NCBI RefSeq assembly: GCF_036669915.1
Contig: NC_089319.1
Location: 9,960,080 to 10,024,079 of the forward strand
Origin: Pocillopora verrucosa
Lineage: Eukaryota; Cnidaria; Anthozoa; Scleractinia; Pocilloporidae
Length of the DNA stretch: 64,000 nt
Reading direction: 5' to 3'
The position numbers and the translations under genes are program-made. Shown piece by piece: positions 9,507-57,146 of this stretch; positions within the stretch are counted from its first letter, which is position 1; each line of letters begins with the position of its first letter. A model generated the notes under the pieces. That model had not been told where the DNA came from. It made no database searches and worked only from the letters and a program-made list of their open reading frames with translations.

Positions 9507-10256
9507 CTGTTCTTCGTCGCAAACTCTCGCAGCACTTCCACCGACTAGATCATCATAAGGTGGCGGTGATGAAGATTCCACGTCCAAACTACTGTCTAGT
9601 GTGACTGCATCATAAGCAGGAGGCGGTATTTGAGGACGAGAAAAGCCAACAATTGGATTTAATGTCGGACTGGTTCTGTTCAACGCAAACGTTTCAACTC
9701 CGTTACGTGGAGGTGAAAATAAATTTACACCATGGCCCACCTGGGTAGACGCAGAATAAACTCCTCGGGAAAATCTTTGTCTCCTACGCTTTTTGTAACA
9801 GCGATACGAACCATAACTAACAGCGACAACAAAGATCAAGACACCGAAAACGGTTCCAACTATGACGAATATGCGTTGATCAAAATGAAAGCTTACTTGA
9901 ACATTCTCTGAATTTTCAGGAGTAACAGGTCGCGGAGCTGGCTTGCATTGACCAGATTCGCATTCTTCATCTTCAGGACAGTCTGTATTATAGCTACAAA
10001 ACGCTGGAAAACTGATATCCGGATTCTCACAGCGATTACGATAACAAATCTTTCCACCATTGCAAGTATCGTCCGAGATGCAAGCATCGGGACAATTCCA
10101 CCATGGTTTGCAAGCACTTGAACAACAAATGATCCCTGCCGACGAGTTTTTTTGATCACATTCAAAGTTTTCAGTACAAGCAAGGGCAAATAGTTCCAGT
10201 TTGAGAAGGCTCTGGAGAAATGCCAAACAAGTTATAACACTGAAACCAGAGTACAT
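9507..10256 (-). CDS. gene A: cysteine-rich single-pass membrane protein with two PPxY motifs
   Basis: Starts at ATG 10256 in a good context (GCGCCATGT). Residues 1-26 are a signal peptide. Residues 27-104 hold 15 cysteines arranged as repeats of C-x5-C-x5-C-x4-C: C59-C65-C71-C76 and C87-C93-C99-C104 are exact, and the first unit carries a CC pair. Residues about 128-152 are the membrane helix, followed by the stop-transfer KKRRRQR. The tail has PPAY (212-215) and PPPY (231-234), ligands for WW domains of Nedd4-type ubiquitin ligases. The exon ends at a donor CAG|GTAAAT after residue 250. If it joins the acceptor at 8432, the protein ends one Val later (DEEQV); reading through instead adds 11 residues. 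A TATA box lies about 205 bases upstream. Probable role: surface receptor or trafficking adaptor. Confidence 0.82.
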
Positions 10257-10458
10257 GGCGCTTTAGTACAATGTACAACACTCGCACAACCCTGGATGCT
10301 ATCGTTAGCTTCCCGTCGGGATCTGGTGCGAGTAGGCCTAGAACCCATGCCTAACACTTGACAGATAAATTTACCGCGGATCATCGAATCTCCTCTCGAC
10401 AGCGAAACAGTAAAGTTTTCGATTCCGCGGCAATACGCCCGGAAACTTGAGTTCCAAG

Positions 10459-10471
10459 CCTTTATATACCG
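10459..10471 (-). promoter_or_regulatory. TATA box upstream of gene A
   Basis: The minus strand reads GGTATATAAAGGC about 205 bases upstream of the gene A start codon. This fits a TATA box with a 5' untranslated region of roughly 170-180 bases. No initiator was confirmed. Confidence 0.45.
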
Positions 10472-13400
10472 TAAAAAAAGGAAGGGTACACCACACTATT
10501 TTTGAAGATTATTGATTAAAATTTCATATCCTTTTCCTTCAAACTCATTGTGTCATTTCAATTGTGGTAAATAACCATGGTGTAGGTGATTAGAGACATC
10601 GTGTAGACTCTTACGTTTTGGGGAAGCCCCTTGTTGCATAACCTTCATACAATATCAAGAAATAACCTTATGCTTGTCATCCCAACTTGAGAATCGAACA
10701 CCAAAAAATTACTCATTCTATATAGGGGTGCATTTCTGTGAAATCTCTCGCTGAACGAATGCTGTACCGCAGTTAGTTTAGGGAGCTTCTTCAAAATGAC
10801 TCAAAAGTTAAACTTGATCACGAACATGACTTTTCCAACGTCCGCTGCCAGAGCTAGTGCGTCATGGGACGTTTTTTGCTTATTGATATTGTTAATTAAT
10901 CAAATCATGATTACTATTACAAAGAGTTTGTAATCTCTTGTTACAATACTTATTATTATTATTATTGCTTGATGCATTGATCAGATAGGATCTTAAGTTG
11001 TAAAATGTTTGCATTTTCACAAAAATGTAGGTTTTTCAAAAACCTACCTATGTGTGCATCAGATGTTATTTCTTTTTAACTATGGTTTATTACATCACGA
11101 TCCCACAAGCTGCGAAGCTTCAACCCCATCGTGTGTAAATTAAGGTTTCACTCACTTACTTACACGGATCGATCAGTTTTGTTTACGAGTTTCAATGCAT
11201 CAAGAAAACGAACTAGAGGGTTTATTGGTGCATGGCAACGAGTGGACAAAAATTATTCAAGCACTTTCCATGGTATGATGCTTTTATTGCATACACACTA
11301 CCATTTTCTCCTACAGAACGACACACTTGAAAGATTGGAAGCAATTTATTATAAACACCACCAAACACGAAAGGTGGCGCGATATTTAGTCTCAGTTGAC
11401 AACTATATATATTTTGTATTTTGTTATTTGTTTTTACACTAATTTGCCAACGGAGATTCTTTACTTTTGAAAAAGAAACATAGATAATTCATATTTTTAA
11501 AATTCAATCAATGAATGGCATCTCGAATCGCAGATGCTTACAATTATGACGTATGAAAACTTGCAAATAAAATTGGACAACCTCGGCTTAGCAAACCTGC
11601 GAGTTTTCTCAAACGCTAAATCATTGATGATACTAGCTTCATAGTTTTTTTTTCTGTTTGAGATATCGTTCAAAGCTGACAATCACTCCCCGTAATGGTG
11701 TGGGGTTGTAGTCATCTCCATCTTTGGTTCTAACAGTGAGCACGCACTTGCTCAGCAATTCATTGAGTTGAGCTAGAGGTATTTCTTCAACGTTCCTGAG
11801 CTCTACCTTCCCTTTCAAGAAAGGTTTTTAGCGGGCATACGTCCCTGTTGGTCTTTCCTCTTGTGTTTTTGTTTTCTTGCTCATCTATGAAGTCATTTCT
11901 TGTTCTTTTAAGACGAGAAAATCTTGGCATCTCTTCTTCCATTTTGTTTTTTCAGGAAGCCGAGCGCTAGTTGTCCTCTACTGTGAAGAACTATCATTCG
12001 TGTCTTTGATTGGACGAACGATGTATTTTCATAGTTGCTCGCTGTTCTGATTGGTTGGTTGGATATTTCGTACGAATTTTACGCGGGCTTTTTATTGATG
12101 TGTAAATCTCAGTATGTATGAAATAAAACCTATTTCAACCATGTCAATGGTGATGGCGAATATGACTAATCCGTTTGTAAGCATCCTTCATGACTCAAGA
12201 AACTGCAAGTAGACGTGATTATGGCAAATCGTGAGTCCACGGATCATTCCGCTACACGCGCGCGAACTAACCCAGACACTATATAAATTTGGAGTGCATC
12301 TAGAAACCCACGCATTAATTTTGGCAAAAACATTCGGGAGAAACGTGCGCGACTAAACACGGATTGGTAACTCTCCAAGTTGGGCCGTAATAAGCAGCAT
12401 GGCATCACGCAAGCTGAAATACTGTGTTTAGTCGGATCAATTATTTAATTGGGACTCTTGAGATCTGAAAAACTCATTCACAGCCTTCGCCTCCTAGTTT
12501 GCCGGCCTGAGCAAACTGAAAACTGAAGATTTTCTGTGGTTCTGTGGTTAGCAGACTCTTAAACCAAGATCAACGCCAAAAGACATCTTTCCTCTTCTAA
12601 CCGGCTCTAAATACGATTATACATTTCTGGAGTGTTTTTAGAGCTACATTGTTTACGTTTTGTCACAACAGCGCTAAATAATCACTAGATATTTTTTAAA
12701 ATGCTCAAGATGAAAATTTTATTCATTGTCATACAAATATAATTTGAGAAATTTATGACTTCATCTGTGGCATACTGAGCTAAGCTTCATGGCGTAATAT
12801 GTACTTATATTAGAGGCGAAATATTGGCCCCTTACGAGCGAATATAGAAATACATTTCTGAAAAACAACTAATTTTTTCTAAAGCGATGCTTTTAATTTA
12901 AATCGGTCGTAACCAGCAATCTACTGAACTCAAACAGGGATCTAAGCTCCGGTTACCGAGTTTCGAATTTATTACTTGTATGCAGATTCTGGAGTCTGCC
13001 TTTGAAGAAATCGTACACGCTTTCGTCGTTATAATACTTTTCTTTTATAACCTGATTTGATCAAGTTGTAAGGCATTTTCATTTTCTTTTTAGGACACCT
13101 GTATTATTATTGAAATGGAAACTCTAATCTGTTGGCGCGTCCGTGATAAATTATTCCCAATTTCTCTTTCATTATTTTCCTTTCTGTAACAGCTGATGGT
13201 ATAAGCAACAAAACTTGGCAGTCTTGGCATGTTCACCAATTTATTTATCTATACTAGTTTTATAATCTTTTCCGAGGCTGCGTGCGATAACGCTGGACTT
13301 ATCAGTCGCCTAATTCATTATCATGTCAAAAGAAAGTTCTAGTTTGTAAACCAAATGAAAATATAAAAATAGATGAAGATTAATGATTTCGACAAGTTTC

Positions 13401-13825
13401 ACTTCTGTGTTGCGCTAAACGGCCGACTCTTACTTCAAATGATAACCGCAGGTTTAAATCGCAGATTTAAGAGCTTCGTGGTTTGGAAATTGATTAAAAA
13501 ACACGGCATAATAACATGCAATATCTACCTTTGCGTACGTTGATTTTTATCGAAACCATCCTCGAGAACCACAGGCACAAAAAAAAAGCTGCGTTATTAA
13601 CCAACAGTGTGAGTTTTAATCAATAACGTGCTAATTCGCACGGAAATATGATTGTTACGAGCTTTCATGCCTGAAACTCTAGATTTTCTCGGTTTATTGC
13701 TTTCCATCGACGTTAATCGCGTTTCGCCGTTGAAGGCAACTAATCAAGTGAGTTTTCAGCTCTTTTTGACGGCGCAATAATTATTTCCACCAGCCAGGTA
13801 AACACAGCTGTTTTCACGTCGTTTT
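10472..13825. other. 3.3 kb gap between A and B, no supported gene
   Basis: No conserved protein frame on either strand. There is a perfect 10-base inverted repeat with one-base spacer at 11027-11047 (GTAGGTTTTT c AAAAACCTAC), and a + strand TATA-like CTATATAAA at about 12288 with no gene attached. The part next to 13826 is the 3' flank of gene B. Confidence 0.4.
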
Positions 13826-14626
13826 CTAAGCCTTCTCTGCTTCGTCGTCTTCTTCGTCTTCCTCGCGAATTGGAGCCAAAGCAGGTCCGCCGGTTATAAT
13901 AGAAATTAAAGCTTCGTCTTCTGCATCAAGTTCTTTTGAATCTTTCCCTTCTTTGACCGGGAAAGCCTCACTTTCAGCACCTACCAAAGCGTTTTTTGCC
14001 GCGCTATCGGCGTCTTCGCCAAGGTGGTGAACTCTCTTTAATTTGCCTTTGGCAACTCGTGTTTTCATAGAATGCCTTTCACTTTTCATTCTGCTCAAAC
14101 AACAGCAGAAAAGGCAAGAGAATATGAGCACGCCGATGATTGTTACAATTGCCAATAGTGCCGGGTTCAATTTTGAGGGTTTATTATTTGTTACGCAGCT
14201 TCCGTTGCGACATTTGGCAGGTTTCGAACATTCAAAATCTGTTACACAACGCCGACTTGACTCAAAATCGTTATGAGACATTGATCTGTTGAAACAAGGT
14301 AACGACTGAAGACACTCACAGAATCCATTGATGCATCCGAGGTTGTCTGCCAAGTTATCGCAATCCGCCTGTTCTTGACACTCAATTTTGCAAACTCCGA
14401 CGCAAACGTTACCGCAACATGTTTGCGAGTTAGGGCATTTGTGGTCTTCGGAACAGGTAGGCAATGAATCCAGTGCAACTTCACATACCATCGACAACAG
14501 GACTTGGAAAAAGACTGTCACTTTAATACACTCTTCATGTTGCGAGATCAAACTGCTCTGTTTTGGTCCCCCCATAAAGATGGTGAAGTTATTCGTTTTG
14601 GTAAACACACTCGGAACTTTGCTCAT
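13826..14626 (-). CDS. gene B: cysteine-rich membrane protein with acidic tail, no PPxY
   Basis: Encodes 266 residues from ATG 14626. A hydrophobic segment at about 36-50 (VTVFFQVLLSMVCEVAL) is the likely signal peptide; the 35 residues before it are unusual, and starting at M18 is possible. The ectodomain (58-144) has C58-C64-C70-C75 with an extra C71, then C83-C89-C98-C103, and C127-C133-C139-C144, so the first and last match the C-x5-C-x5-C-x4-C module of gene A. The membrane helix is about 155-178, ending in a Cys cluster (CLFCCCLSRM) and basic residues. The 85-residue tail is acidic (REEDEEDDEAEKA) and has no PPxY. It shares strand, topology and ectodomain with the array but not its ligase-recruiting motif. 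Either it lost the motif or it works as an ectodomain partner or decoy. Confidence 0.75.
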   Translation of the reverse strand: MSKVPSVFTKTNNFTIFMGGPKQSSLISQHEECIKVTVFFQVLLSMVCEVALDSLPTCSEDHKCPNSQTCCGNVCVGVCKIECQEQADCDNLADNLGCINGFCECLQSLPCFNRSMSHNDFESSRRCVTDFECSKPAKCRNGSCVTNNKPSKLNPALLAIVTIIGVLIFSCLFCCCLSRMKSERHSMKTRVAKGKLKRVHHLGEDADSAAKNALVGAESEAFPVKEGKDSKELDAEDEALISIITGGPALAPIREEDEEDDEAEKA

Positions 14627-14701
14627 TTACACACTACCTCGACAAGTGGTAACAATGCCACGAGCACGACTCGCAGGTGTTAATAACAGGAAATAATAGA
14701 T

Positions 14702-14709
14702 ATGCAAAT
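14702..14709 (-). promoter_or_regulatory. octamer-like site upstream of gene B
   Basis: ATTTGCAT on the minus strand, about 76 bases upstream of the gene B ATG, matches the POU-factor octamer and is followed by an AT-rich TATA-like stretch. A chance match is possible. Confidence 0.2.
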
Positions 14710-17160
14710 ATAATGTGCTTATCAATCAGCGCTGTTCTACTGTTGTTGTCTCAAAATGGGTTTCGGAAGCACGATGTCACCTTAAATAATAACTTCTAAT
14801 CGGCGATATTCGCCAATCTCAGGATGACTTTACACATGTCTGTCCGAGGCACTGCGGACGCCAAATGGATGGAAAACCGCATTTGTATCGGGAATTGATA
14901 ATTCAAGACAGATCCGTCGAAGCGTTCAATTCGCGCTCAATAGATTTGCGTTTGATGGATGCCAACTTGACAAGTGATTAAGTCAGAAGGTTTCAAATGA
15001 CGTGTACGGGCACGTATTGCTGGGGAGAATCACGCACTTCCCATTGTAAAGTATAAGCATATTTCTCTAATTTCTGTTTGCCTTGGCTACGCTATCTCGT
15101 TCCGCTTGAAACAACTGTTTTTGTTCGCACCGACCACAACAAACTCAATATTCCCGCCTACTTGGTTTCCACTCGGTAAAGAAAACAGTATTGGACGATG
15201 AAAAGCGACTTTAGGCCAAACATCGATGGATTTTTTGGCTACTAATTCTAAAATCGCTGGTCCGACTTTCTGCTTGGAGCCTACAACCTATAATTTCATC
15301 CACGCTATATCCTTACCTTCGGTTTGAAATTCTAAAGAAACGTTTGACTGAACGAACAAGATGAAATTTCAAAAGTCCATACGTTTCAAAGCAGTACCCA
15401 AATCAGGTCTATTCAGCAAGGCATTTCTCGTTAAGCTCTTAAGCTTAATTGGAAAGTTCGTTTTCATTCAAGCAATAGGCTTCAGCATTTGAGGAAAACT
15501 CTTTTCCACCTTGTGGCAAATTAAAAGAAAAATAATTGCGAAGACAATACAATTTCTAACAATATAATGCATAATTTGTAAGTGTTCTGTGGTGCGTGTT
15601 CTTTGTTTATATTTTCGATCGCTAAGCAAATGTTTAGAAATGGGATTCAGTGCATGTCTATAGCTAAAACTAGCGGAGAGTGTCAAAACAAATGGACAAT
15701 AATGCCGATGTTTTGAGGAAATTATAAATTTAGCTTTGTCTCCATGTGTTTATTTATTTTCTTTTTTATTAAATCGACTTGACCGCAGGGTTAACCGGCT
15801 CTGTAACAATCATAATTAGTTTTCATACAACAGCTGGTCGTGCTTATAGTTTGTGTTTTTCCGGATTTTTGGGCCACTTCACATCTCCAATTTTGGTCAT
15901 AAACACCACCTCATCTCGGCATCATGAACAAACATTTGTTGGTATTTTTAATGTGTGCTCCAGGGCAGACTTGTCAGATTTTTCTTTATCACTAATCGGC
16001 TTCGCCGCGGCTGACAAAGGAAAAAATTTGCATACATTTTTTTGGGGTCAACCATTAGGTTGAGAGGATCAAAGAAGATAACATAGCCAGACAAATGTTC
16101 CCCCGTTGTCTAGTCAATGCTAAGAGTTGGACTATAGTTAGTCGGTCACACTTTGCACGAAGAATGACACAAGCGTTTGTCTAATTCCATAGCTGACTGA
16201 AAATAATAAACAACTCGAGAAGTTCCACAAGTACTTTTCTTTTTCAATTCGACATGGGAAAAACAGTGGAGGATTACTACCACTAAATTCACATTTTTAG
16301 CACCTAAGAAAGGACTTCAAACAAAGATTCATCGCCCTAGGGTTGGATTTCACAGACTCCCTACTGTGATCCAACGCATGGTTGACATCTACCCTTTCCA
16401 CAAGATTTAATCGAAGTCAGATTTTATAATTATTCATTATTTTAAAATAATGCCAATAATAGTGTCACTTGTCGATAAAATAGCCATAAAGTTGAACAAG
16501 AATATTAAATGGTCAGGTACTGAATTGCACAAAAGCTAAGAGAAAACAGACTAAACTCGTTATTCAGACATTTTCCCTTTCCACTAAATTTTATCACGTA
16601 GGTAGGGTCAAGACTGGTTTATTAATTGTGTCACTGGCCGATAAAATGGCTGTGAAGTTGATATAGAATATTTAACGGTCAAGTACAGGATTTCTTAAAT
16701 AACATACCAAAACCCGTTACTTTTACTCCCATAGATGGGAAAGTGGTGTGTTTCATAAGTTACGCGTTGCAGAGCTCACAGTGGACTCCATGAGCTAAAT
16801 TTTGTATTTTTCTAGTCAAATAAAAGAAGACAGGCCATTACCGAAGTGAAAACAACTCCAGGGTTTTGCGTTTCGTTTGTTTGACTCTCGTTCCTCGTTC
16901 GCACTATAAGATTATTCAAAGAAGACAGGCTGCTGACTATTGTGGGATTCATAGTTCCTCTTCTTGGGGCAGTTTATGCGTTTGCTCCCTTCACCTGAAA
17001 ATCTGGTTGAAAACTGTCAATGTAAAAAAAAAAAAAAAAAAAACTAGAAATTGATCGTTCGCTGAAAGACCTAATTGTTTAAGGCAATTTCACATAGACA
17101 GAACAGCAAGATATCTCTTGAGAACAGCTATAAACAAGAACATAAGGCAGCCACGTCTCG
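14710..17160. other. non-genic stretch with a local duplication and poly-A
   Basis: No convincing gene. It contains a diverged direct repeat (16463-16530 and 16629-16696) and a run of 20 A at 17024-17043, which could mark the end of an old retroposed sequence. Open frames near 15779 and 16866 lack ATG starts or recognisable domains. Confidence 0.4.
16463..16696 (+). repeat. diverged direct repeat of about 68 bases, two units
   Basis: Units at 16463-16530 and 16629-16696 share TGTCACTTGTCGATAAAAT / TGTCACTGGCCGATAAAAT and continue with GTTGA..AGAATATT and GGTCA.GTAC. Spacing is 166 bases. Origin unknown; no coding frame is conserved. Confidence 0.6.
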
Positions 17161-17166
17161 TCCCTA

Positions 17167-17397: not shown

Positions 17398-17570
17398 AAC
17401 CTCGAATCATATGTTTCGTCAAGCACGAGATTCAAATGCCCAAGGAAGCCCAAGGAGTGTTGGAGAAAAGGATTTTAGTTCCCAATCGTTATTTGGGAGT
17501 GCCAACATAGATCTCCATGACCACAAGCCGTTGCTTGTTCGCGGGTTCGTGGTTCGTGGATAACAGTCTC

Positions 17571-18649
17571 CGGTGAAGCCCTCATGACTTCTTCGTAGCT
17601 TGGCTGGAGGTGCTTCAAGTTTCATGTCCCCAACGTCACTGGTAGGACTGTGGGGCCACTAATTGTGACAAGAGAAGAGCATTGTGATGTGTGCGCGATT
17701 CTAACAGCGTTCCGGCTGTTCGTTCACTGAGCTCATTGCCTCACTTCGAACCTTCCTATTTTGCTGGGAAGCTTCTTTTCCTGTGGAACTTCTATCCATG
17801 GGGGACCAATCCGAAAAGCGTAGTGTTAACGTTATCATTTCGTTCATTTCGGCGTTGCCTCGCGCAACAACAAATGAGAAATATCAGGGCTGCGATTAGC
17901 TCCACTCACATTGCGTATCGTGTTACTTGACAACGAGATCTTGGAGGAATCATTGCCCTTGCGCTCACCTCGAATGCCTACCCCCTTTGACCGATGTGTC
18001 CCCTTGGCCCCTGTGCCTTCTGGTCCCATTCTGTTTCGCCGCCCGCCCCTGTAGTTCCCCCCTCCTTTCATGTAGCCAGCTCCGGGCTCTGCGCCCTGCC
18101 TCCTGAGCTATCCATTCATCTGGGAAGTGGCCAATGCAATGATACCCGTTATTAGAGAAACCAATGAAGGGAATGAAACAACATCATACACTTGAGCTGC
18201 GACATAAAGATCTTGATAAAAGATATGATTGCATTTACGACAACAATTGCAGTATAGTTTGGGACTATGAATAAAGCCTTTAAAAAAAATTCAGGTTTGA
18301 ATGGGAGTCGAACCTTTGACGGGCTTGACGGACCTTCAAATCAAACTTAACAGAAGCTGGTTCTTATGTAATATCTCATTTTTTATGTACTATCCCACGG
18401 GAAACATCATTTGGTGCATATTTTTCGACGTGTCACTTGTGTTTAATAGAGGACAATTGTAGATTAGAAGACACAAACGCTAAAACGTGGATCATTCAAT
18501 GATCCATGTTGTTGTCAGTCTCTGTTTTACTGATTACAGCAGAAAGACTCACCATAACAGCCCTCGTCGTAACTACACGCTAAGGTGGCGTACTTGTTCA
18601 TAAGACAGTACAAAATCTGGCAAACAAGAACTCTTCTTTCCATTCTCAT
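17571..18649 (-). pseudogene. gene C: two-exon PPxY-array member, pseudogene
   Basis: Exon 1 (18553-18649, 97 bases) is intact: MRMERRVLVCQILYCLMNK leads into LACSYDEGCYG and ends at a GTGAGT donor in phase 1. It has the same length and phase as exon 1 of gene D and is clearly related in sequence. The matching exon 2 (about 17571-17935) is recognisable but broken. A membrane-like stretch (ELIAALIFLICCCARQRR) is followed by stops, the AATGAGCTCAGTGAACGAAC block matches gene D, and the tail GAAGCACCTCCAGCCAAGC has one base more than the gene E equivalent, which shifts PPPSYEEVM out of frame. The Cys-rich start of exon 2 is not recognisable; a C/G-rich stretch lies there. The intron carries a SINE. 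A transcript may still be made, but no intact receptor. Confidence 0.75.
18285..18352 (-). repeat. tRNA-derived SINE fragment in the gene C intron
   Basis: The minus strand has a B-box-like AGGTTCGACTCCCA followed by CAAACCTGAATTTTTTT, the same junction type seen in the SINEs near 22.6 and 58.4 kb. The 5' half is eroded. Tail sequence may extend to about 18200. Confidence 0.55.
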
Positions 18650-19503: not shown

Positions 19504-20758
19504 CTATGACGCCCCCATAACTTCTTCATAACTTGGTGGAGGTGCTTCAGTGTTATATCTGTCGTCAATGTAAGATTGGAGACAGCTGTAAGCGATAGTA
19601 TCAGAAATTTGATTACGAGCTTCTTCGTGTTGCGGTAGTTCGTTCACTGAACTCACTTCATTGCTTCCCATCTGTTCATTTTGCTGAATGTGTCTCATCC
19701 TAGAAGTTTCCGCATCCGTTGTGACAACTCTTGGTGTGATTTTTCTGTTGCCTTGTGCTTCATCTTTTAGCATTATACAACAACAACAGAGAAATACAAC
19801 GATGACAACTATTAAAACTCCAAAGACGAGGGACACTGTTGTGTCCCTTCTGCCACCTGGTATGCAGTGCCCATCATCACACATATACCCGCTGTTACAG
19901 CTTGGATCCTCATAACATTCTGTTTTAAAAGAAGAAAGGACACTGCACTTTCACAAACCACTCATTAAAAGCAGCTGAAAAAAAAGGTCACCACATTTAC
20001 ATAACAAGTAGGGGAAAGAAGAACCTTCGTGTGGCTTCGTAACTCAGTTGGTACCGCGCATCACTATCTGGGAAGCACAGGTTCGAATCTTGTCTAAATC
20101 TAGTTTTTTTTAAGGCCTCCTTTATGTAATTGCCTAAATTTCAGCACACCTGCTTCACTTCTTCTTCAAAAAAGGTTGAATGATACTTTCCGAATCAAAC
20201 TTGTAGGTATTCTAGCACATGTTTATAGAGCTTTCAAAACAATTGACTGAGAAGTGGAAATTGTTTAATTTCGCAATGATACCTACGATGAATGAATACA
20301 TTCAAGGGAACATATGAGCATAATGTGTTTGATCTGTGATAGAGGAAAGATGATCAGATAATACACGACTTTTTTTGAAGTACCTGTGAAAGTGAAGCTT
20401 GCTAAAAATAGATACAGGCTTAGACTAGATTCGAGTCTGCGAATTTATCCAAATGGAAGCTAGGAAGTGATTGTGCGATACATGATTTTTATTTTTTTTG
20501 TCCCTTGACAGTAACATTTCATGGCACAGAATCTTTGAAATTGTTCTCGTTTCTGGTGGAAAGCAATCGTTGATTTGATGATGCCAACGATAGGACAAGA
20601 ATCACAGATGTGAGCTCATCTAATACGCCTTTCAATCTGTAATTACAGGAAAGAGACTCACCATGACAGTTGTTGTCATATTTACAAGTTGAGGTCGCGT
20701 TATTGAGCATAAAACAGTATAGAATCTGCCAGACTAGAATTTTGGTTTCCATCCTCAT
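19504..20758 (-). CDS. gene D: two-exon cysteine-rich membrane protein with terminal PPxY
   Basis: Exon 1 is 20662-20758 and exon 2 is 19504-19919. The donor CATG|GTGAGT and acceptor TTTTAAAACAG|AATG join in phase 1, giving 170 residues. The protein starts MRMETKILVWQILYCF, a signal peptide cleaved near ATSTC. The mature ectodomain has CKYDNNCHGEC followed by the module C-x5-C-x5-C-x4-C (CYEDPSCNSGYMCDDGHC), which is the same spacing as in genes A and B. A membrane helix follows (TVSLVFGVLIVVIVVFL) with a CCCC cluster at the inner face, a likely palmitoylation site. The tail of about 100 residues ends PPPSYEEVMGAS, with PPSY at about 160-163. The intron contains a SINE on the opposite strand. 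This is the best complete two-exon member and the reference for the damaged neighbours C and E. Confidence 0.85.
20031..20165 (+). repeat. tRNA-derived SINE in the gene D intron
   Basis: A-box-like GTAACTCAGTTGGTAC and B-box AGGTTCGAATCTTG lie in tRNA-like spacing, followed by a T-rich link and ATTGCCTAAATTTCAGC. The tail is shared with the SINE near 58.4 kb. It is antisense to gene D. Confidence 0.65.
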
Positions 20759-22124: not shown

Positions 22125-22525
22125 TTAAATATACGTGGTAACATGATGATCGTTTGACGGTGTTCTCGAATGAGGAGCCTCCTGTGAAGCCCTCATAACG
22201 TCTTCATAACTTGGCGGAGGTGCTTCCGTCTCATCTTCGACTTCAATATATGATCGAGGGGCACTGTCTGCAACGGGATTAAAAATTTGATCAAACGCTT
22301 CTTCATGTTGCCAAGGGTCGTTCATTGTACTCATTACCATCCTTTCCACCTGTCCATCTCGTTGAATTTCTGCTTCCCTTTGAATTCCATTCGTGTTGAC
22401 AGTTCTTAGATTGGTGTTAATGTTGTCATTTTCTTCGTCTTCCTCCATTTGTCTTATGCAATGACAAACAAGAAGCATGAAGAGTACTGCGAGGGAAGCT
22501 CCAATCCAATAATATATCGTTTCAC
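22125..22525 (-). CDS. gene E, exon 2: membrane helix and PPxY tail
   Basis: The exon encodes ETIYYWIGASLAVLFMLLVC (membrane helix) followed by CIRQMEEDEEND, a long acidic/polar tail and EAPPPSYEDVMRASQEA, then a 16-residue extension. There are two overlapping acceptors: CTTTCAG at 22530-22536 and CTAG just after it. Use of the second gives phase 1, matching the donor phase of the array first exons, and 401 bases in frame. Unlike gene D, the exon has no Cys-rich stretch before the helix, because a SINE lies immediately upstream. PPSY resembles the D motif almost residue for residue. Whether a protein is made depends on the damaged exon 1. Confidence 0.65.
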
Positions 22526-22574
22526 CTAGCTGAAAGAATAAAAGAAAGGAAGAAAGACTGAAGCAGTTGTGGAC

Positions 22575-23736: not shown

Positions 23737-23834
23737 CATTACAACGGCTCGGAAATTCCATCTGACACCCTGAAGTCGTGTACTTGTGCTTAGAACCGAA
23801 CAGAATCTGATAAAATCCGAAATTTTGTTACCAT
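23737..23834 (-). pseudogene. gene E, exon 1: frameshifted
   Basis: It aligns with exon 1 of genes C and D from the ATG to a GTGAGT donor but is 98 bases instead of 97. The extra base lies in the signal-peptide region before CAGATTCT. Downstream of it the family frame is kept (TSGCQMEFPSRCNG, matching TSTCKYDNNCHG in D), but from the ATG the frame stops after 14 codons. A different open frame starting upstream (ATG 23898) runs through to the donor in phase 0 and would join the alternative acceptor CAG|CTAGGT in frame. That would give a protein without a signal peptide. So E is either dead, or re-framed, or the extra base is a sequence error. Confidence 0.6.
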
Positions 23835-27317: not shown

Positions 27318-27734
27318 TCACATGGCTAAATTCTCTTGGGAAACCCTAACGGCTTCCTCATAGCTTGGTGGCGGAGGTTCATTTGAAACCGCTATGTACG
27401 GTGGTGGGCCACTGTCTGCGATAGCATCAGGGCTTCTTGGACTTTCATCGTGATTCTGACAAACATCTTCAGCCACGCTCGATGACCGTTGATGTCCAGT
27501 TCTAGTCGAGTCTGAAGTTGAACTAGCTCCCCGCAGTCTTAAGATGAAAATAGAACCTGTCTCGCTTTGATTTGTATAACCAGAAGGTTGAACTTCACCT
27601 TGTTGCGTGGTCCTTCGCCTCGCAGCGATTTCTCCTCTTCGCTTCTGAGCAGTTATGTGACAACAACAACCAATTACGATGGCGAAAAGCACGATGACCA
27701 AAACAATGAAGATAGTTTGAACGACTTCAGACAT
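27318..27734 (-). CDS. gene G: ectodomain-less membrane protein with two PPxY motifs
   Basis: Single exon, 138 residues, ATG at 27734 with an in-frame TAA five codons upstream. MSEVVQT is followed directly by a membrane helix (IFIVLVIVLFAIVIGCCCHI), then KRRGEIAARRR. The tail carries PPPY at 110-113 and PPSY at 122-125 (PPPPSYEEAVRVS). It is the paralogue of gene F about 2.1 kb away, and even the bases before the ATG are related (CTTCAGTCGGTATG versus CTCTATTCCGGTATG). The conserved parts are the helix, the CC(C)H edge and the two PY motifs; the linker differs freely. That pattern implies selection on membrane anchoring and WW binding. Confidence 0.8.
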   Translation of the reverse strand: MSEVVQTIFIVLVIVLFAIVIGCCCHITAQKRRGEIAARRRTTQQGEVQPSGYTNQSETGSIFILRLRGASSTSDSTRTGHQRSSSVAEDVCQNHDESPRSPDAIADSGPPPYIAVSNEPPPPSYEEAVRVSQENLAM

Positions 27735-32502: not shown

Positions 32503-33360
32503 TCATAATCCTGAGGAACTTTCCTCAATGTTGGACACCGCTACCTTTAAAACATCTTCGTAGCTTGGCGGGTTGGACGTATTTCCGTACCGCTGATCGC
32601 TGTACGGAGGAGGTTCCTCGTTAATGCTTTGAGTATCGGGAGGAGGTTCGAATGCTTCTTCGTCATCTTCGCCTTCTTCCGATCTGGGTCGAGGTTTATC
32701 GTAAGCCGAGTAAAAATCGTAAGGCGGTAAGCGCGCGTGAGGGACATAAAAGCCGTTTGAAAATCCATCCAAATCTCCATTGAGTGCAAAATTATCAATT
32801 CCCATATTTAATTCAACCTGCGACGTATCGTGTCCAGTCAAGTGACTTTCATTCCAATAATCCTCCCCTGTTTGTGATCCTTGTGTCGTTGCCGAGCGCC
32901 TCTGTTGATTTCGCCTTTGTTTTGCCCGGGCCAAGCAGAACGAAATCAAGCAGAAATTTATAAATAGAATTGAAAATCCCACAAGAGCGATAGCAAATTC
33001 TTGGTTTCCTGAGAGCAAACTGTGGCTCGTGGAAGTTGGTTTCCCAATTCCGTTTGACCCTGTAGAGATCGTAGTCTCCGCTACTGTTTTGTATTCCATT
33101 GACACGTCAGTCGACGGAATCCGACCTTCTTGACTGTCCGACTTTGACTCGACGTAAACGCAATGTCCTTGTCGACAGACCTTGCCAGAGCCACAGGAAA
33201 TGTTCAAAAGATCGCAGTCAATAATGTCGATAACTCGACTGTTGTTTATCCGCGTATTGTTTCCGCAATTGCTCTGTGGAGGTGGGCATTTTACAAAACT
33301 TAACGTCAGCTTTGCTTCGAAGGAAATAACTAAAAACACAACCAAATTTACCGACGTCAT
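32503..33360 (-). CDS. gene I: membrane protein with three PPxY motifs
   Basis: 285 residues from ATG 33360. The frame is open further upstream but without ATG, and starting here gives a clean signal peptide (MTSVNLVVFLVISFEAKLTL). The ectodomain has C25-x6-C32 and then C49-x6-C56-x5-C62-x4-C67, one residue longer than the A/B/D module. It continues with a Ser/Thr-rich stalk and N-glycosylation sites. The membrane helix is about 121-144, followed by KQRRNQQRR. The cytoplasmic tail of roughly 140 residues has three PY motifs: PPYD preceded by Leu (LPPY, 211-214), PPPY (250-253) and PPSY (264-267, NPPSYEDVLK), plus an acidic EEGEDDEEAFE stretch. Multiple PY motifs favour tight binding to the multi-WW Nedd4 ligases. 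Confidence 0.83.
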   Translation of the reverse strand: MTSVNLVVFLVISFEAKLTLSFVKCPPPQSNCGNNTRINNSRVIDIIDCDLLNISCGSGKVCRQGHCVYVESKSDSQEGRIPSTDVSMEYKTVAETTISTGSNGIGKPTSTSHSLLSGNQEFAIALVGFSILFINFCLISFCLARAKQRRNQQRRSATTQGSQTGEDYWNESHLTGHDTSQVELNMGIDNFALNGDLDGFSNGFYVPHARLPPYDFYSAYDKPRPRSEEGEDDEEAFEPPPDTQSINEEPPPYSDQRYGNTSNPPSYEDVLKVAVSNIEESSSGL

Positions 33361-38874: not shown

Positions 38875-39474
38875 TCAGCCAGCGGTGGTGATAACAGTGG
38901 TCCCTGTTTCTAAAGGCTTTAGTAACTGCGAAATCTTCACCACATGCTCATACGGAGGGGGAGAGTTTCCGAACAAAATACCATACTCTGGCGGTTGTTC
39001 ATTTGATGTTTCAGTCCCCACGTTTTCTCCTACAACCGTACTTTGCATCTCGCCAATACCGTTTAAATTGAAGCTAAAAAGACTAAAATAAGGCGGAGGA
39101 CCAGCAGTCATACTGAGCGACGAAAATCGCCTTCGCATTAAGTAGTCTGGAATTTCCACACCCGTGCTTGAATCGCATGTGGTGCTCTCATTCGATGGTG
39201 CGTCGACACTTTGTGACCAAGGTCCTTGTTTAAAGCACACGTAAACCAAAACGATAGCAAGTCCAATAATTAATGCCACAGATATACTCATAATGATTAC
39301 AATGATCTCCACTCCGCTGCCTGAAGCATTCGAGTTTTCGCATTCATCGCTACATAGTCCGTGAGAGCATGATTCCAATTCACCATTACACTGCGATGAC
39401 ACACCGATCGCACATGAAACTAAAACCATCGCTGGATAGAAAACGAAAAATTTCATGATTTGATTAAGTCCCAT
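38875..39474 (-). CDS. gene J: membrane protein with three PPxY motifs and a compact Cys ectodomain
   Basis: 199 residues from ATG 39474 (or 193 from ATG 39456). The frame stays open 330 bases upstream, but a TATA-like ATATAAAAAG at 39578-39588 lies about 105 bases 5' of this ATG, so the upstream part is probably untranscribed or leader. The signal peptide is about residues 7-27 (MKFFVFYPAMVLVSCAIGVS). The ectodomain has C29-x6-C36-x4-C41-x3-C45 and a Ser/Asn/Gly stalk. The membrane helix is about 56-80. The tail has PPPY (126-129), PPEY (161-164) and PPPY (172-175, NSPPPYEHVVKIS). Motif placement near the end matches genes I and A. This is a single-exon member with the shortest ectodomain among the signal-peptide-bearing PPxY genes that are complete. 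Confidence 0.8.
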   Translation of the reverse strand: MGLNQIMKFFVFYPAMVLVSCAIGVSSQCNGELESCSHGLCSDECENSNASGSGVEIIVIIMSISVALIIGLAIVLVYVCFKQGPWSQSVDAPSNESTTCDSSTGVEIPDYLMRRRFSSLSMTAGPPPYFSLFSFNLNGIGEMQSTVVGENVGTETSNEQPPEYGILFGNSPPPYEHVVKISQLLKPLETGTTVITTAG

Positions 39475-47971: not shown

Positions 47972-49348
47972 TCACTGCTGAGTATCCGCGCCTGATTTCA
48001 TTTTTGTATCCTCCCGTGCCCACCATTCTACCCACCAGACTCGTCCCAGCATGACGTTTCTCTTTCGGCCAGGATGCGCCGCGCTGGCTGGGGTCGAACG
48101 ATAGGACGGCAGCGCTTCAAAATTCTTTGGGATTGACGCCTCGTGACGTACTTCTTTCACATAAAAACTGGAAAACGGCCACCGAAGGTCCTGTGCTTTG
48201 CTATCGTCCAAACTTGAGGCCAAGTTATCTTCACGGTGGTTTTCCGTCGGAGGATTTCCGGTATCTTCCGATTGATTAGCGATTGGATCTTGTTTGGAAC
48301 CGATCTTTCCTTCATCGGGCATGAAACATTTATAAATGGTGCGATATTTGTTTGCGTCGGATGAATCTCCGTTTGGATGAATAATGGGCCCACCGTCCAT
48401 GAGTTCTTGGATCTCAGGGTCCACATCTCGTGCCATTTCAAAGCTGCCAGCCCCACTGGAGTTACCATCGTCATTACTTTCGTCGCTAGATTCTGAAGAA
48501 GAACCGTCGCTATTCGGCGGTCGTTCGTTTTCCGTACCCTTCATGGATCCGTTATCGGAATCGGCTAGTTCATCTGATCGTTCTCGCTTTATTTTCCTCA
48601 TTGCCTTACGGACGGCAGTTTTAAATACTTTTTCCGAGTTGTTACTTCCGTTTCCGTCCGACTCGCTGTCACTTCCGTTGTCGTGTTTACAGATTTTCCT
48701 GACATGCGCCTCCAAATCAAACTCGTCTTCGGTTTCTTCGTCCGATGATTCTTCGTCGGACAAAATGGGGGATTCAGTTTCCAAGTTTTCAGCTGTGGAG
48801 CTTCCAGAGTCGCTAGAAGCCTCGCTGTACTGCCGTAAGATGGAGGCCACAACCTTCTTGACATGAGCCGTCGTTTCGGCATCCATCGGATCTACATGAC
48901 GCTCTTCTTCCTTAGCAGCCTGTCTCCCGCTCTGAGCAAGCTTATCCTCGTTTATTTCTACTTGAATCTGCTGCATTGTCACTGATGGTTTCCTGAAACT
49001 ACCAAGGAGCCGAACGGTTTGTTCTTGTACAGAGATGGAGTCCCACACTTCAATGTCATCGTCCAACGACCCTACAGAGCTTGTCAAACCATTCTGGTGT
49101 GACTTGGACACGGAACGAGTTGCTATCGAGCCCGCTCTCGATAGCTGATAGCTCCTAGCATCTTCAGATCCTCCAGGCGTGGCTATACTGCCAGCAGAAC
49201 CGATACTGCCCCTGGGATCGGAGTTGTAAGATCCCGCGCGATTTCTTGGACTGTTTTTACCCGTTGATGATTCATTATCATCCGAACTTACCATGTAAGC
49301 GCCCTCTTTACCTTTGCTCCAGAAGCGTTTGCGTCTAAAAATGGGCAT
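47972..49348 (-). CDS. gene L: large serine/acidic-rich soluble protein, unknown function
   Basis: 458 residues in one exon from ATG 49348. An acceptor (TTACAG) lies two bases before the ATG, so at least one non-coding 5' exon exists upstream. The start is basic (MPIFRRKRFWSKGKEG), then Ser/Gly-rich (SIGSAGSIATPGGSEDARS). A more ordered segment DDDIEVWDSISVQEQTVRLL leads into a predicted helix (TAHVKKVVASILRQYSEA), followed by long Ser/Asp/Glu tracts, a basic helix (VFKTAVRKAMRKIKRERS) and a C-terminal part with MARDVDPEIQELMDGG and a YRTIYKCFMPDEG stretch. It has no signal peptide or membrane segment. An LPSY motif occurs at about 413-416. Acidic low-complexity regions suggest a nuclear or scaffold protein with many casein-kinase-type sites. 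I do not recognise the family; it breaks the membrane-protein pattern of the array. Confidence 0.75.
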   Translation of the reverse strand: MPIFRRKRFWSKGKEGAYMVSSDDNESSTGKNSPRNRAGSYNSDPRGSIGSAGSIATPGGSEDARSYQLSRAGSIATRSVSKSHQNGLTSSVGSLDDDIEVWDSISVQEQTVRLLGSFRKPSVTMQQIQVEINEDKLAQSGRQAAKEEERHVDPMDAETTAHVKKVVASILRQYSEASSDSGSSTAENLETESPILSDEESSDEETEDEFDLEAHVRKICKHDNGSDSESDGNGSNNSEKVFKTAVRKAMRKIKRERSDELADSDNGSMKGTENERPPNSDGSSSESSDESNDDGNSSGAGSFEMARDVDPEIQELMDGGPIIHPNGDSSDANKYRTIYKCFMPDEGKIGSKQDPIANQSEDTGNPPTENHREDNLASSLDDSKAQDLRWPFSSFYVKEVRHEASIPKNFEALPSYRSTPASAAHPGRKRNVMLGRVWWVEWWAREDTKMKSGADTQQ

Positions 49349-51667: not shown

Positions 51668-51858
51668 CGCACATCTTGCACACCTCGTAAACATATCGCA
51701 CACATATCACACATATATCGCACAAATATTTCACACATATCCCACACATATCACACATATATCACACAAATATTGCACATATATCACTCACACATCACAC
51801 ATATATTGCAAGCACTTTGCGCACACATCGCAAACATTTTGCACACGCATAGCACACG
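51668..51858 (+). repeat. CACACATAT minisatellite
   Basis: About 190 bases built from drifting units of 9 to 11 bases such as CACACATAT, CGCACAAATATT and TTGCACACATCG. The units vary too much for a fixed period, which suggests an old array. It could form alternating purine-pyrimidine (Z-DNA-prone) structure. Confidence 0.8.
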
Positions 51859-53055
51859 TTGAGGGCGGAAAAAAACGGAAAGAAAAGCCATTACTGGCCA
51901 ACACATTTGTCACTCGACAGCCCCAGAGGCTAAAATGCCCCGAATAAATCAAGTGATAATTCAGGACAGAATTTATTTTATTTTGGAAGGTACAACACTA
52001 CACAATATATACAGAACCGACACCAGAAGGCAAAAAAAACACACTCACAAAAAAATATATTGATGTTTCTATGCAGCAAACAAACAGAGCTCGATAACGA
52101 CATGACCGATAAGATCGTAACCATAGTTGGAAATAATTCAAGGCAACATTCATTAATTGTGCAAAGCACAAAACAAATAGGACAATTGTACTTTGCACGT
52201 TGACAGTAGTTCAACACAGATGGTTTTTCAACTTCTATTCCCGTTCAATATTGACAAATTCTTCAATATCAAAACCATGTTTATATTTATACCTATTCAG
52301 ATCCTTTCTTTGTGGCAATGCTAGCCAAATAATTGAAATCAACTTTGATAGAGTTTAAATTACGAAGACTTGAATTTTAATTTGTTAAGGGACGAGCCGA
52401 AGTTAAAAATATCATCGGAACCTGGTTCCATTACACCTGTCTCGAACAGTTAGCAATTTAACATCCACTTTCAAGATCACTAAAAGCTTCGTCGAATCCA
52501 GTCAATTCAAACTAAATTTGTTGTATAACCAGCTTCATTGCATAAAATTATTGATCGAACGATCGATAAAATGGACCTCGACGATAAATATTCGTCGATG
52601 TATAGAAACATGATACGAAATTCCATACCAAGCAATTTGTCGAAATTTTTCGTCGACTTTTGGTGCCTCTGGCCCTTAAAGCTAAACCCTTTGCGGTAAT
52701 TATAAACGTAATAGTTTTATTTAACTACGACGGCAAAATCAGCCGAACTTTTGCTACGTTAAAACATTGAGGTTTCCTGCATTGTTATTAGAATAAATGG
52801 GAAGATGGCTTCGTACCAGAAATGCTGGCCTGTTATCATGAAAAACTTTAAAAGTTACAGAAACACTTAAATACTATTGTTTGAACAGCCACACTTCGAG
52901 ACTATTTTACCTAAACTTACTTCCAAGTATTCAAGCTCTGAAATACTGGACACTCTTCGCCTCTGATTTCCAAGTCAATTCTATCTCAGCCAGCTCGGTT
53001 TCGAAATTAACAGTCACACGTATTCTTGCCTTAATGAAAATTGTAATGGTCTCAC

Positions 53056-53194
53056 CTGTCACTTTATGCAAAGGCGATGTCATTGCCATGGAAACGACTC
53101 CAACCCGCAGGTGTATTAGAAGGTTTTGGTCACTTTCAATTATGTGAACAAAGCTCTTCTCCTTCGCTAATACTTCTATTGACAAAACAGACAT
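53056..53194 (-). CDS. possible first exon of a secreted protein (weak)
   Basis: ATG 53194 gives MSVLSIEVLAKEKSFVHIIE, and the open sequence just before it (LLFVL) extends the hydrophobic leader. The body IHLRVGVVSMAMTSPLHKV is beta-like, and the exon ends at CAG|GTGAGA in phase 1. No partner exon was found and there is no Cys pattern, so this may be chance. Confidence 0.22.
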
Positions 53195-54613
53195 TAACAC
53201 AAACAGAAGACCAACGTGCTACAAAACATTTGTTATTTTCACTTCTTTATTCAAATTAAGCTATGCAACTACTGACTCAACTAAAAACTTTTCTGGTTCC
53301 ATATTGATTAAGCCGGCTAAAATGAAAACGAAAGGTAAAGGAATCTTTACCACAAAAAATTCCTTTTTTTTTCTCTCGTAGGTATTCTCTTGGCCCTCAA
53401 AAAACGCAAAAGGAGATTAAAAAAATCAACAATGATGAGAGCAAAGCCAGCGTCGTGCCATTGTCTGCGTCAGTTTCTATTTTGTAAAAGATGAAAGAAA
53501 AAACATGCAAAGACAATTTTAAACACGAGTAATTTTAAGTGCAAGCGGTAAGCATTAATTTGTTTTAAATCAACGATCTTCTGACGTATTTGCTTTTCAG
53601 GACGATCCTTGAAACGAAAAACACACATTACTGAACTGTTACTAACAATAGATTCATGTATGTTTTGAAATCGCCTAGTTTTCCTATGTCTGAAACACGT
53701 ATGTTTTGAAGAATACGACCTTTAAATAACCTTTGAAGTCGGTTTTACCTCTGCCTTTGAACCTGAGAGCGGAAAATTTAACCGTGAGAGCAAACAAAAT
53801 GTGACAGACATTCATATCACATAATTCTGCTTCAAAGTCAGGTCAAATGATAAAAATTATAGGGGGTAAAAGAAAACCAGCAATGTAATGCACTTAAAGA
53901 ATGACTGCAAACAAACAGAGATCTGAAAGGTACTTACTGAATTTTTAAGGGAACATTTTGTGAGTGAGTGGGCAACTTATTACATCATATACCTCTAGTT
54001 ACTAATTTTTTTTTTTTTTTTCATTTTTGCATTTTTCTTTCAATATGCATCATTTTTTTGTCAGGTTTTTGTTTTACTTTCTCAGTCTTGTTTTGAGTTC
54101 TGCCAATCAGTACCACAATTCCATGCTTCTTTCAGTTGGTGTTCCTGGAAGGCAACAAGGATCTCGTCCGTAAATACGATTTATAACTTGAAGATAGCCT
54201 CGGCACATTCAATATTTGTTAGCAAAGTTTGCCGAAATCTTTGCTAGGATATTTTTGATGAGCTTTACTAACATTTATCGATTCATTATCAATAATCGAT
54301 TTTGCCATGATGTCTCCACAAATTGAATAAAAATTCACTGAGCCCTCTCAGGCAGTTTGATACTGAATTAACTCACCCACCCCTTGTGGTTTACGTCACG
54401 TTAAACATCCCCCGCCCCCTCCATGAGCTTCGGTAATCATCACCGACAATCAGTCGATCACAACCGACCAAACGCCAAATCGAGATGCACTCCAGAAATT
54501 ACCAAACCAAAGCCTTGCTGTCTTCCGTAAATAAAACCATAGCAACAACAACTAGTTTGACAAGGTAATGAAATAGTGTTAAAAACCAATTTCATTCAGT
54601 CAACGGCTAATAA

Positions 54614-54637
54614 TTTTTTTTTTTTTTTTTTTTTTTT
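54614..54637 (+). repeat. poly-T run of 24
   Basis: An uninterrupted run of 24 T followed by AAAGAAAAC. Possibly the poly-A tail of a minus-strand retroposed copy; no body could be assigned. Confidence 0.7.
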
Positions 54638-55404
54638 AAAGAAAACAGCCTTTAAGTCACGGAAAATTCAAAATAATTTGTCTACTTAACAGTCAAAAAT
54701 TATAAATCATTTTTACTTACAGATATTAGGCATCAGTCGTTGGGCAATTCTGTTGATTTAAAATCTTTAAGAACAGTCTGATCGTAGGAGAATTGCTTCC
54801 TTACAAATAAATTTTTAAAAACAAATATTACTTAATGGACGGACGCACTTGGGTCCAGTTCCTTCCGCTAATGTCCTCATTTGGTGTTCCTTCTATTTGG
54901 ATGCGCTGTTAATGAAAGTGCTAAGATCACGAAAGAAAATGACTGCAACAATATCAAGGGATTATAATATCTTGAACGATATTTGTTTGAATTTGGTTTT
55001 AAGGTTTGGTATTAGCATGTGAAAAGCTTTTAGCATGGAAAATGCGCCATCAACACCTCGTGAATTAATATTTACGATTTTTTTTCACGTTTGCTCATTA
55101 TTTTAACGTGATGTCAATATTGTCAATGTGGAACAATGCCAGGGTTTGCCGGTGTCATAGTTTTGATGTTCCCTCCAATAATCGATAATCAGACATTACT
55201 TTCAAGCACACTACTTGTTAAACAAAAAACAGTTAGCTGTTGCGTATGCATTATGTTACATTCAGTCTGTGAATGATATTTGTTAGTCTGCAGAACTGCA
55301 GTAGCTAAAGAGTCGCGCTTTTCCGATGCTCCTGCGTGATTTTTGACCCTGTCGATTCCGGCAGAGTCTAACTGAAGTTAATTACTACTCGCAATATCGC
55401 GACA

Positions 55405-55616
55405 TTTTAACCCATCACCTCCCAAGAGCTGATTGTTAATTCTCTCCTCTTGCTGTTACATAATTCCTTGTAAATTAGTCACGAGAATTTGGTGTAAGAT
55501 CAAGAAAACAACTTCCTGATAAGTTTGAGTATTCTCATCAACCGTTTGCTAGAAACCGTATGGATATCTTAAGGAGAAGTTACATGTTTGTCACTTCTGG
55601 GAGTTAAAGGGTTAAA
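55405..55616 (-). repeat. MITE-like repeat family 2, copy 3 (inverted)
   Basis: Inverted relative to 8568-8769 and 47452-47654. It runs from TTTTAACCCATCACCTCCCA to CTGGGAGTTAAAGGGTTAAA, and these ends are inverted repeats of each other. Confidence 0.7.
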
Positions 55617-56633
55617 AGTAGAAAAGTGATGATATGAAATAACATAAATTAAGGCCAGGATAAAATTTAATTTATAACCAAATTATTAGAGCTGAAGTTG
55701 CGGTAAATTTCTCGCAGACAAAACGGAGAATTTAATTCCAAATTTTAGTAGTTGAAGAGTTTAATGCCAAAACACACCTGGACACGTACAACTGTGATAG
55801 GCAGCGCGAAAAAACCGTGGCAACAATTCGCTTTGTGAAACGATGAGGATTTTTGTAAAAATAATATGTCCCAACAGGTTGCGAAGACTCAATTTGGCTT
55901 TGGTACCTTTATTTCAGCGACATACTTAGTCCCAGCGACTTGCAATACATGCAAAGCTGTTTGTTGGAAATAACTGCTGCGGCGACTAATCGCCTGGTGA
56001 CTTGAATTGGTAGTTCGTCCGTACATTGATTTGTAAGTCACGCAATGATAGACTAAAGAAACTTTTACTTCATTAAAAACGCTGCGTACAGTGAAACAAA
56101 ATAAATTAAATAGCTTTTCATCTGAGCTTAAAAGTCTTTTCCTATTTTTTTTTCTTCTTTCATAATCATTTTCTCTAAGTGTGGCCGCGATATTTTGAAT
56201 ATTTCAAACTGGCATAAAAATTAGACAATGTTGTCTCCGTTGTGTACGAAAATGTCATGGGAACACTTGACCTCAACAATATCAGCCTCTTACGATCACG
56301 CAAAAGTAGAATTGTTTTGTAAAAAATATTTGACTTGTCATCATGATTATGTAAATGTTTTGATCTCCTTCACAGTTCACTTCTTCCAATCTTCTTTGAT
56401 GTTATCGAAGCCTTTTTCTTCTTATTTTCTTTTACCAATGGTTCGTCGCCTCGATAAAAATATTTACAAATAAGCTCTATAAAAAATCGTTTCATACTCT
56501 CTTCTTGAAATAATTTAAGGTGTGATCAATAGATGCAAAACTATAATACATATCTTGCTAGTCCATTGTTTTTGCAGATGAATACAGCTCCTCGTACTCT
56601 CAGTAAAAATTCTCATCCAGCGCTTATCAACTC

Positions 56634-57146
56634 TCACTGTGCGCTCACCACGACATCTTCGTATTTAGGCGGTGGACAATAAAACAAGGAACTGTATGAT
56701 GGTGGAGGCATTTCCATACTGTACGAGTCTTGGTCGCTTGTTATAGCTTGATTTGTGCTTCCGCGAACCAGTGTACCATTGTAAGGAGAGGAAATAATTC
56801 TTATGGCGCTATTTGAGTTTGGAGGCATCCAGTCCTCAATTCGGCGATCTTGTTGTCCATTAGAGAATTCCTCCACATCAGTCGATGAAGAAATTGTTCC
56901 TTGATTATTGGTGTTACTGTCGAACTCGCTGTTTCGTCGATACGTTCCAGATTCGACACTGTTTTGTTTACTTTTCAAACAACTGAAGAGACGCTTACGA
57001 AAAAAGCATGCCATGATCACTAACGCCGCCAGCAACAAGCCAATGGGAACAGGCCAGATTGAGTTAAAGATCGAAGAGAGTCGCATAAAGCTTCGATTGC
57101 ACTGTGTTTGTGCTTTTGTAAGTAGTTCAAACCTCCTCTGACACCG
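56634..57146 (-). CDS. gene M: terminal exon of a PPxY membrane protein
   Basis: The exon starts after a good acceptor (CTGTCTCGCTTTGTAG) in phase 0 and encodes 170 residues to the stop at 56634. The first 20 residues (RCQRRFELLTKAQTQCNRSF) include two cysteines and look like the end of an ectodomain. The membrane helix is VPIGLLLAALVIMACFF, followed by RKRLFSCLKSK. The tail is polar and ends MEMPPPSYSSLFYCPPPKYEDVVVSAQ in two pieces: PPSY and then PPKY, so there are two PY motifs 7 residues apart. An internal ATG (57086) could start a shorter form of 150 residues, but the open frame back to the acceptor and the cysteines favour an upstream signal-peptide exon. The phase-0 exon at 63857-63962 is one candidate partner. 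Confidence 0.7.
   Translation of the reverse strand, partial: RCQRRFELLTKAQTQCNRSFMRLSSIFNSIWPVPIGLLLAALVIMACFFRKRLFSCLKSKQNSVESGTYRRNSEFDSNTNNQGTISSSTDVEEFSNGQQDRRIEDWMPPNSNSAIRIISSPYNGTLVRGSTNQAITSDQDSYSMEMPPPSYSSLFYCPPPKYEDVVVSAQ

Follow-up and report, generated by a model that had tools for sequence, protein, structure and literature searches.

A linked array of coral single-pass membrane proteins with PPxY tails, likely an old locus of NEDD4-family ligase adaptors

The window analysed here, a 64,000-nucleotide stretch of the stony coral Pocillopora verrucosa (contig NC_089319.1), contains a row of genes whose products each have a membrane helix followed by PPxY motifs. Are these genes one family, is their neighbourhood recent or old, and with what might the tails connect them? 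An initial annotation had read the row as a lineage-specific expansion of ligase-recruiting surface adaptors with variable ectodomains. By analogy with characterized adaptors, we consider it likely to be an old coral locus of single-pass membrane proteins that bring NEDD4-family ligases to membrane cargo. A literature search, covering few subscription papers, found no account of an array of this kind. The array comprises the following features.

1–146, minus strand: beginning of a further Cys-rich protein with signal peptide (CLYYSDC...CC), cut off by the left window edge
9471–10256, minus strand: gene A, an open frame with signal peptide, 14-Cys ectodomain, transmembrane (TM) helix, PPPAYDAV and PPPYDDL
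13826–14626, minus strand: gene B, with A-related Cys-rich ectodomain, TM helix and acidic tail, no PPxY (tblastn with A, E = 1e-4)
17492–17954, minus strand: gene C exon 2, decayed by several frameshifts and stop codons; record P0041 has an intact copy
18554–18643, minus strand: gene C exon 1, intact, 97% identical to P0041 residues 1–30
19504–19923, minus strand: gene D exon 2, with a C-x5-C-x5-C-x4-C module, TM helix and one PPxY (PPPSYEEVM)
20662–20758, minus strand: gene D exon 1, with signal peptide, C-x5-C (two further Cys) and phase-1 donor GTGAGT
22125–22529, minus strand: gene E TM and tail exon, PPPSYEDVM (relatives P0054 and P0038)
23737–23809, minus strand: relic of the gene E first exon, ectodomain lost; the frame homologous to that of D exon 1 lacks a start codon
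25211–25621, minus strand: gene F, with N-terminal TM helix, no ectodomain, GPPSYR and PPPSYEEAM (relative P0036, 136 aa)
27318–27734, minus strand: gene G, with N-terminal TM helix, no ectodomain, GPPPYIA and PPPPSYEEAV (relative P0032, 138 aa)
32503–33360, minus strand: gene I, with 4-Cys module, TM helix, LPPYDF, PPPYSD and NPPSYEDVL (start at 33360 inferred from orthologues)
38875–39474, minus strand: gene J, with small Cys ectodomain, TM helix, PPPYFSLF, PPEYGILF and PPPYEHVV (start at 39474 or 39456, inferred)
56634–57086, minus strand: gene M, an open frame with N-terminal TM helix, PPPSYSSLFYCPPPKYEDVV

The eight PPxY genes (A, D, E, F, G, I, J, and M) are open reading frames that all lie on the minus strand, and A, F, G, I, J, and M are single open frames. 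Apart from the signal-like N-termini of A, I, and J, each gene encodes one helix-length, strongly hydrophobic segment (8 of 8), the weakest being that of gene E (2.07, Kyte-Doolittle). Together the eight hold 15 PPxY motifs: two each in A, F, G, and M, two plus LPPYDF in I, three in J, and one each in D and E. Shuffling the residues of the eight proteins, with D and E entered without their first exons, yielded 0.19 PPxY per run on average and never more than 3 in 2000 runs. A PPxYE pattern in the DNA occurs seven times in the window, always on the minus strand, versus 0.09 expected, and none of 100 shuffles reached seven. A six-frame scan found five further PPxY strings outside the eight genes, in frames of 22 to 97 residues. 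These results uphold the eight single-helix, PPxY-tailed minus-strand genes of the initial annotation, and every PPPSYEEVM-like ending it cited was found in the window.

To the account of those eight genes we add the separate exon 1 of D, the relic first exon of E, the decayed gene C, the PPxY-less gene B, and the Cys-rich start at the left edge, beyond which the array may continue. Gene B, with WAP and DUF7107 Pfam matches that both fall below cut-off, belongs to the array, the output motif having been lost from it or never present. F and G lack an ectodomain, since their relatives begin a few residues ahead of the helix. M has no sizeable ectodomain either, its start being nine residues before the helix; in other corals, some relatives of M are longer by about 20 N-terminal residues (MEVWIEHGS...), perhaps a leader or untranslated, and the 20 open codons upstream of the window's M include no ATG. 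A scan for internal phase-1 Cys exons returned ten candidates; each overlaps a frame of gene A, B, D, F, J, or M, and none supplies E, F, G, or M with the Cys exon it lacks.

The window also holds a tRNA-Thr (GGT) gene at 4791–4864 on the minus strand and, between J and M, a 458-residue Ser- and acid-rich open frame (47972–49348, minus strand) with no Pfam match at E ≤ 0.01. Pfam searches of six neighbouring open reading frames gave one weak match. The open reading frame at 2002–2490 (minus strand), perhaps part of a mobile element, weakly matches a herpesvirus tegument N-terminal domain (E = 6e-4, below cut-off).

To place the array in time we turn to other corals. Three protein searches gave 30, 59, and 73 matches (162 in all), the organisms named being Desmophyllum, Porites, Pocillopora, Oculina, and Stylophora; such a search picks up only relatives sharing short exact words and is silent on absence outside stony corals. 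Sorted by best match, 26 fell to A, 30 to I, 29 to J, 19 to M, 23 to D/C, 21 to F, 11 to G, and 3 to E, counts that take in nine doubtful relatives (P0079, P0081, P0082, P0083, P0085, P0086, and P0088 in D/C, P0080 in A, and P0089 in E). From the kinship, region, and ectodomain tests and the trees, 21 of the 162 were dropped as fragments, read-through models, E-type sequences, or doubtful relatives (P0031, P0037, P0038, P0042, P0054, P0074, P0075, P0077, P0079 to P0089, P0091, and P0154), and P0071 and P0072 were reassigned to F/G. Orthologues of A, F/G, I, J, and M were found in other corals; Stylophora pistillata LOC111338628 is an A orthologue, and relatives of I include Desmophyllum pertusum and Porites lutea sequences.

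The orthogroups also share contigs. At least two occur together on 12 of 35 contigs above 20 kb (13 of 35 with F and G separate), where contigs are told apart by the exact size of each cluster's longest contig and linkage means co-occurrence, not order; one of the 12 is 33.5 Mb long, and linkage there says little. The other 22 contigs have one orthogroup each, which is no sign of absence, as one contig is reported per cluster. Contig 1217422 carries A, F, I, J, and M; contig 917861 A, F, I, and J; contig 695912 A, F, I, and M; and contig 665734 A, three D/C, I, and J. The Desmophyllum locus tags for M and I are OS493_021038 and OS493_021042. In the midpoint-rooted tree of I, P0019, which lies on contig 665734, falls with Porites lutea (support 0.952), the window's I with Desmophyllum (support 0.864), and this suggests that contig 665734 comes from a complex coral. 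If so, A, D/C, I, and J were already linked before robust and complex corals split, an event for which PMC10236652 gives ~245 million years. The orthogroups are shared and co-linked in other corals, and the array is therefore an old shared locus.

This bears directly on the idea that surface receptors expanded recently, and in Pocillopora only, under diversifying selection in the style of an immune repertoire. Tandem duplicates are reported to be common in corals (PMC10236652), and C, D, and E do cluster together in the tree (support 0.74–0.81, with P0041 in place of C), C being decayed in the window and intact in P0041. That other corals have orthologues of A, F/G, I, J, and M and that the ectodomain of A is conserved (mean identity 0.69, 14 invariant Cys) nevertheless makes such an origin highly improbable. 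With C, D, and E excepted, we reject the lineage-specific expansion of the whole array that had been proposed, on the linkage of orthogroups elsewhere and the tree of I. The tandem-gene criterion given in PMC10236652 (E ≤ 1e-20, 80% coverage) would presumably miss an array this diverged.

C, D, and E alone look, from their sequences, like a recent local expansion. P0041 shows, for gene C, the exon junction of D with no intron in between, as expected of a spliced transcript, and the decay of C in the window (P0041 is intact, with 87 member sequences) reflects either the recent loss of a gene or poor assembly at this place. The P. verrucosa model P0054 (LOC131778910) reads the first exon of E in another frame and matches gene E and its first-exon relic in three pieces at 88–98% identity. 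The D, E, and C proteins have one PPxY each and their relatives have two; because of this single motif and the decay of C in the window, constraint on these copies appears weaker (dN/dS of D–E is 0.61). For F–G, dN/dS is 0.29.

How far the array is a single family was judged by profile comparison (hhalign) with the PPxY motifs masked. D/C–F/G reached 96.8%, A–D/C 97.0%, and I–D/C 75%, and A against D/C reached 95.7% on the ectodomain alone (reversed controls at most 3.5%); reversed-sequence controls overall gave at most 6.3%. Eight other PPxY hits, compared unmasked, score 95–98% against the D/C and F/G profiles, and unmasked scores were therefore discarded as evidence of kinship. Masked, the same eight reach at most 89.5% against F/G and 31.8% against I and, leaving aside P0080 and P0086, at most 52.7% against D/C and 29.1% against A. 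These two themselves reach up to 97.9% (91.9 for P0080 and 95.8 for P0086 against D/C) and are probably true relatives, by their similar Cys modules. A, D/C/E, F, and G are, by these sequence comparisons, kin outside the PPxY region. The I–D/C score exceeds eight of eight controls against I and six of eight against D/C; as controls reach 89.5% against F/G, we grade the kinship of I to that group as suggestive only. J and M, masked, give at most 9.5% against any other group and would be kin to each other at most through the tail pattern they have in common, a spacing of 11 and PPxYxxLF...PPxY.

The isolation of J and M, together with the way the motif inflates unmasked scores, is what one would expect if the PPxY proteins were several unrelated families that converged on a motif and became neighbours by chance. 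We regard this as rather unlikely for the array, given that A and D/C match on the ectodomain alone, that the masked D/C–F/G score stands above both the reversed controls and the other PPxY hits against F/G, that J and M have their spacing and pattern in common, and that the orthogroups remain linked. The initial annotation had named unrelated families as grounds for abandoning its proposal, and in part this is what we found, J and M being unlinkable to the rest outside the PPxY region.

The tails are well kept across orthologues, in tallies that again include the nine doubtful matches. PPxY motifs are retained in 30 of 30 I sequences (two plus LPPY) and 28 of 29 J sequences (three), and both are retained in M (19/19), F (21/21), G (10/11), and A (23/26). 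Measured start to start, the last two L/PPxY stand 11 apart in all 19 M and in 26 of 28 J, 19 apart in 20 of 23 A, and 14 apart in 21 of 30 I, with more variation in F (13–19) and G (12–23); the distance is at least 10 in every match with two. An extended form, [PL]PxY[DE]x[AVIL][LMVIF], occurs in 126 of the 159 matches that have L/PPxY but is rare in A (2/26), and many I orthologues end in PPSYDEAL. Retention of PPxY across orthologues supports the reading of a co-oriented single-pass array with a conserved output motif.

Mean identity in the PY core exceeds that of the ectodomain in I (0.81 vs 0.48), J (0.82 vs 0.65), A (0.74 vs 0.69), and D/C (0.65 vs 0.40), and reaches 0.96 in M. The tail ahead of the PY core is less conserved than the core in six of six alignments (141 of the 162 matches), and TM identity in I (0.85) and J (0.92) equals or exceeds that of the core. 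The claim of variable ectodomains thus holds between genes, and within I, but hardly for A, and a sizeable ectodomain is absent from F, G, and M. In A, 14 Cys are invariant across 23 sequences (22 of the 26 A matches plus the window's A), of which 19 match Pfam DUF7107 at E ≤ 0.01, the window's own A falling below cut-off. The low-confidence model of A (mean pLDDT 54.8) has three hairpin modules in the ectodomain. That of a D-type protein is also of low confidence (mean 59.3), and the two are alike, with three hairpins, one long helix, and a very low-confidence tail; disordered tails are modelled at low confidence in this way.

In the adaptor reading that we favour, the PPxY tails would bind WW domains of NEDD4-family HECT ligases (NEDD4, or WWP/ITCH type), and binding would relieve ligase auto-inhibition, an effect of PPxY binding reported in PMC11399591. 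The ligase would be brought to a membrane protein chosen by the ectodomain or helix, and that protein would be ubiquitinated and sent to lysosomes. F, G, and M, without an ectodomain, may choose cargo through the helix or only set the level and place of the ligase, and PPxY number and spacing may tune which ligase engages. Comparable proteins speak for this reading: WBP1L recruits ligases of the NEDD4 family, and CXCR4 rises when it is lost (PMC6991692); in CYYR1, several PPxY motifs mediate binding to WWP1, and deleting pairs of them abolishes it (PMC11399591); and the GLPSYDEAL extended motif is critical in Commissureless (PMC5578492). Four NEDD4-family genes are assigned to the cnidarian ancestor in PMC2837046.

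PPxY is, however, a general WW ligand, YAP included, and the tails might instead recruit other WW proteins (YAP, WWOX, KIBRA, or MAGI types), linking surface contacts to Hippo or polarity signalling rather than to ubiquitination. A PPxY pair with a short linker modestly suits a YAP-type tandem (PMC6744271), and the spacing and extension seen here are both compatible with YAP. The tight KIBRA/MAGI mode demands exactly two residues between motifs according to the same source; start-to-start spacings of at least 10 leave at least six residues between the last two L/PPxY, and we therefore reject that mode. The acidic and hydrophobic extension is Commissureless-like, and we hold recruitment of other WW partners to be quite unlikely.

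The NEDD4 adaptor reading may be carried further, to a stable multi-gene cassette of stony corals whose linkage would be older than the robust/complex split and whose genes would each join a cargo reader of their own (or none) to a gene-specific PPxY spacing code, sharing few NEDD4 ligases among many membrane cargoes, perhaps with joint expression. This extension is speculative, and we think it unlikely in its full form.

Among known systems, the likening of the array to Commissureless, Shisa, and PRRG proteins in the initial annotation was apt, and from sequence we file the coral proteins among single-pass PPxY adaptors, outside the Shisa-like and Commissureless groups. WBP1, WBP1L, and VOPP1 (of the Shisa-like STMC6 group, with CYYR1 and TMEM92) have the same Cys-rich ectodomain, one helix, and PPxY tail; they differ in that the coral F, G, and M have no ectodomain and the coral genes form a linked, diverged array. 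Gene D (ORF 19504–19884) matches Pfam WBP-1 (PF11669; E = 5.1e-7, 30.7 bits vs a cut-off of 28.1), F and G match it below cut-off, and at E ≤ 0.01 it is found in 19 of 31 chosen D-type and F/G sequences, in none of 23 A, and in none of a chosen set of 33 J, M, and I. The array proteins have the STMC6/Shisa-like single helix followed by a PPxY tail, but the six-Cys pattern C*C*CC*CC by which PMC5578492 defines STMC6 occurs in 0 of 90 ectodomains (25 A, 30 I, 27 J, and 8 D/C) in a strict test that allows no other Cys between and includes some fragments. Shisa proper is similar in its Cys-rich ectodomain, one helix, and proline-rich tail, and a survey with two corals and a sea anemone in its sample reported it in bilaterians only (PMC7653359); with no Shisa Pfam match among the window genes and orthologue sets, and that Cys pattern absent from the same 90 ectodomains, we reject Shisa membership.

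Commissureless and PRRG4 are likewise short single-pass proteins with an extended PY motif of the LPSYDEAL kind (PMC5578492); unlike PRRG4, the coral proteins have no Gla domain match. Membership of Commissureless by Pfam Comm is rejected, with D at E = 0.0047 and 17.6 bits vs 27, and E ≤ 0.01 in 1 of 31 sequences. PDB sequence searches gave no clear relative, the best match (E = 0.0016) being to the TMIE helix region. NDFIP, with three helices, and ARRDC, with an arrestin fold, are structurally unlike the single-pass array proteins. Both are PPxY adaptors of NEDD4 ligases (PMC11399591), the kind to which the array proteins are likely to belong. With at least five conserved, linked orthogroups of gene-typical spacing, the array would be a natural test of how PPxY number and spacing affect ligase choice, and a lead on coral control of surface receptors. 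Single-pass PPxY adaptors have mostly been described from bilaterians, as lone genes or in small families.
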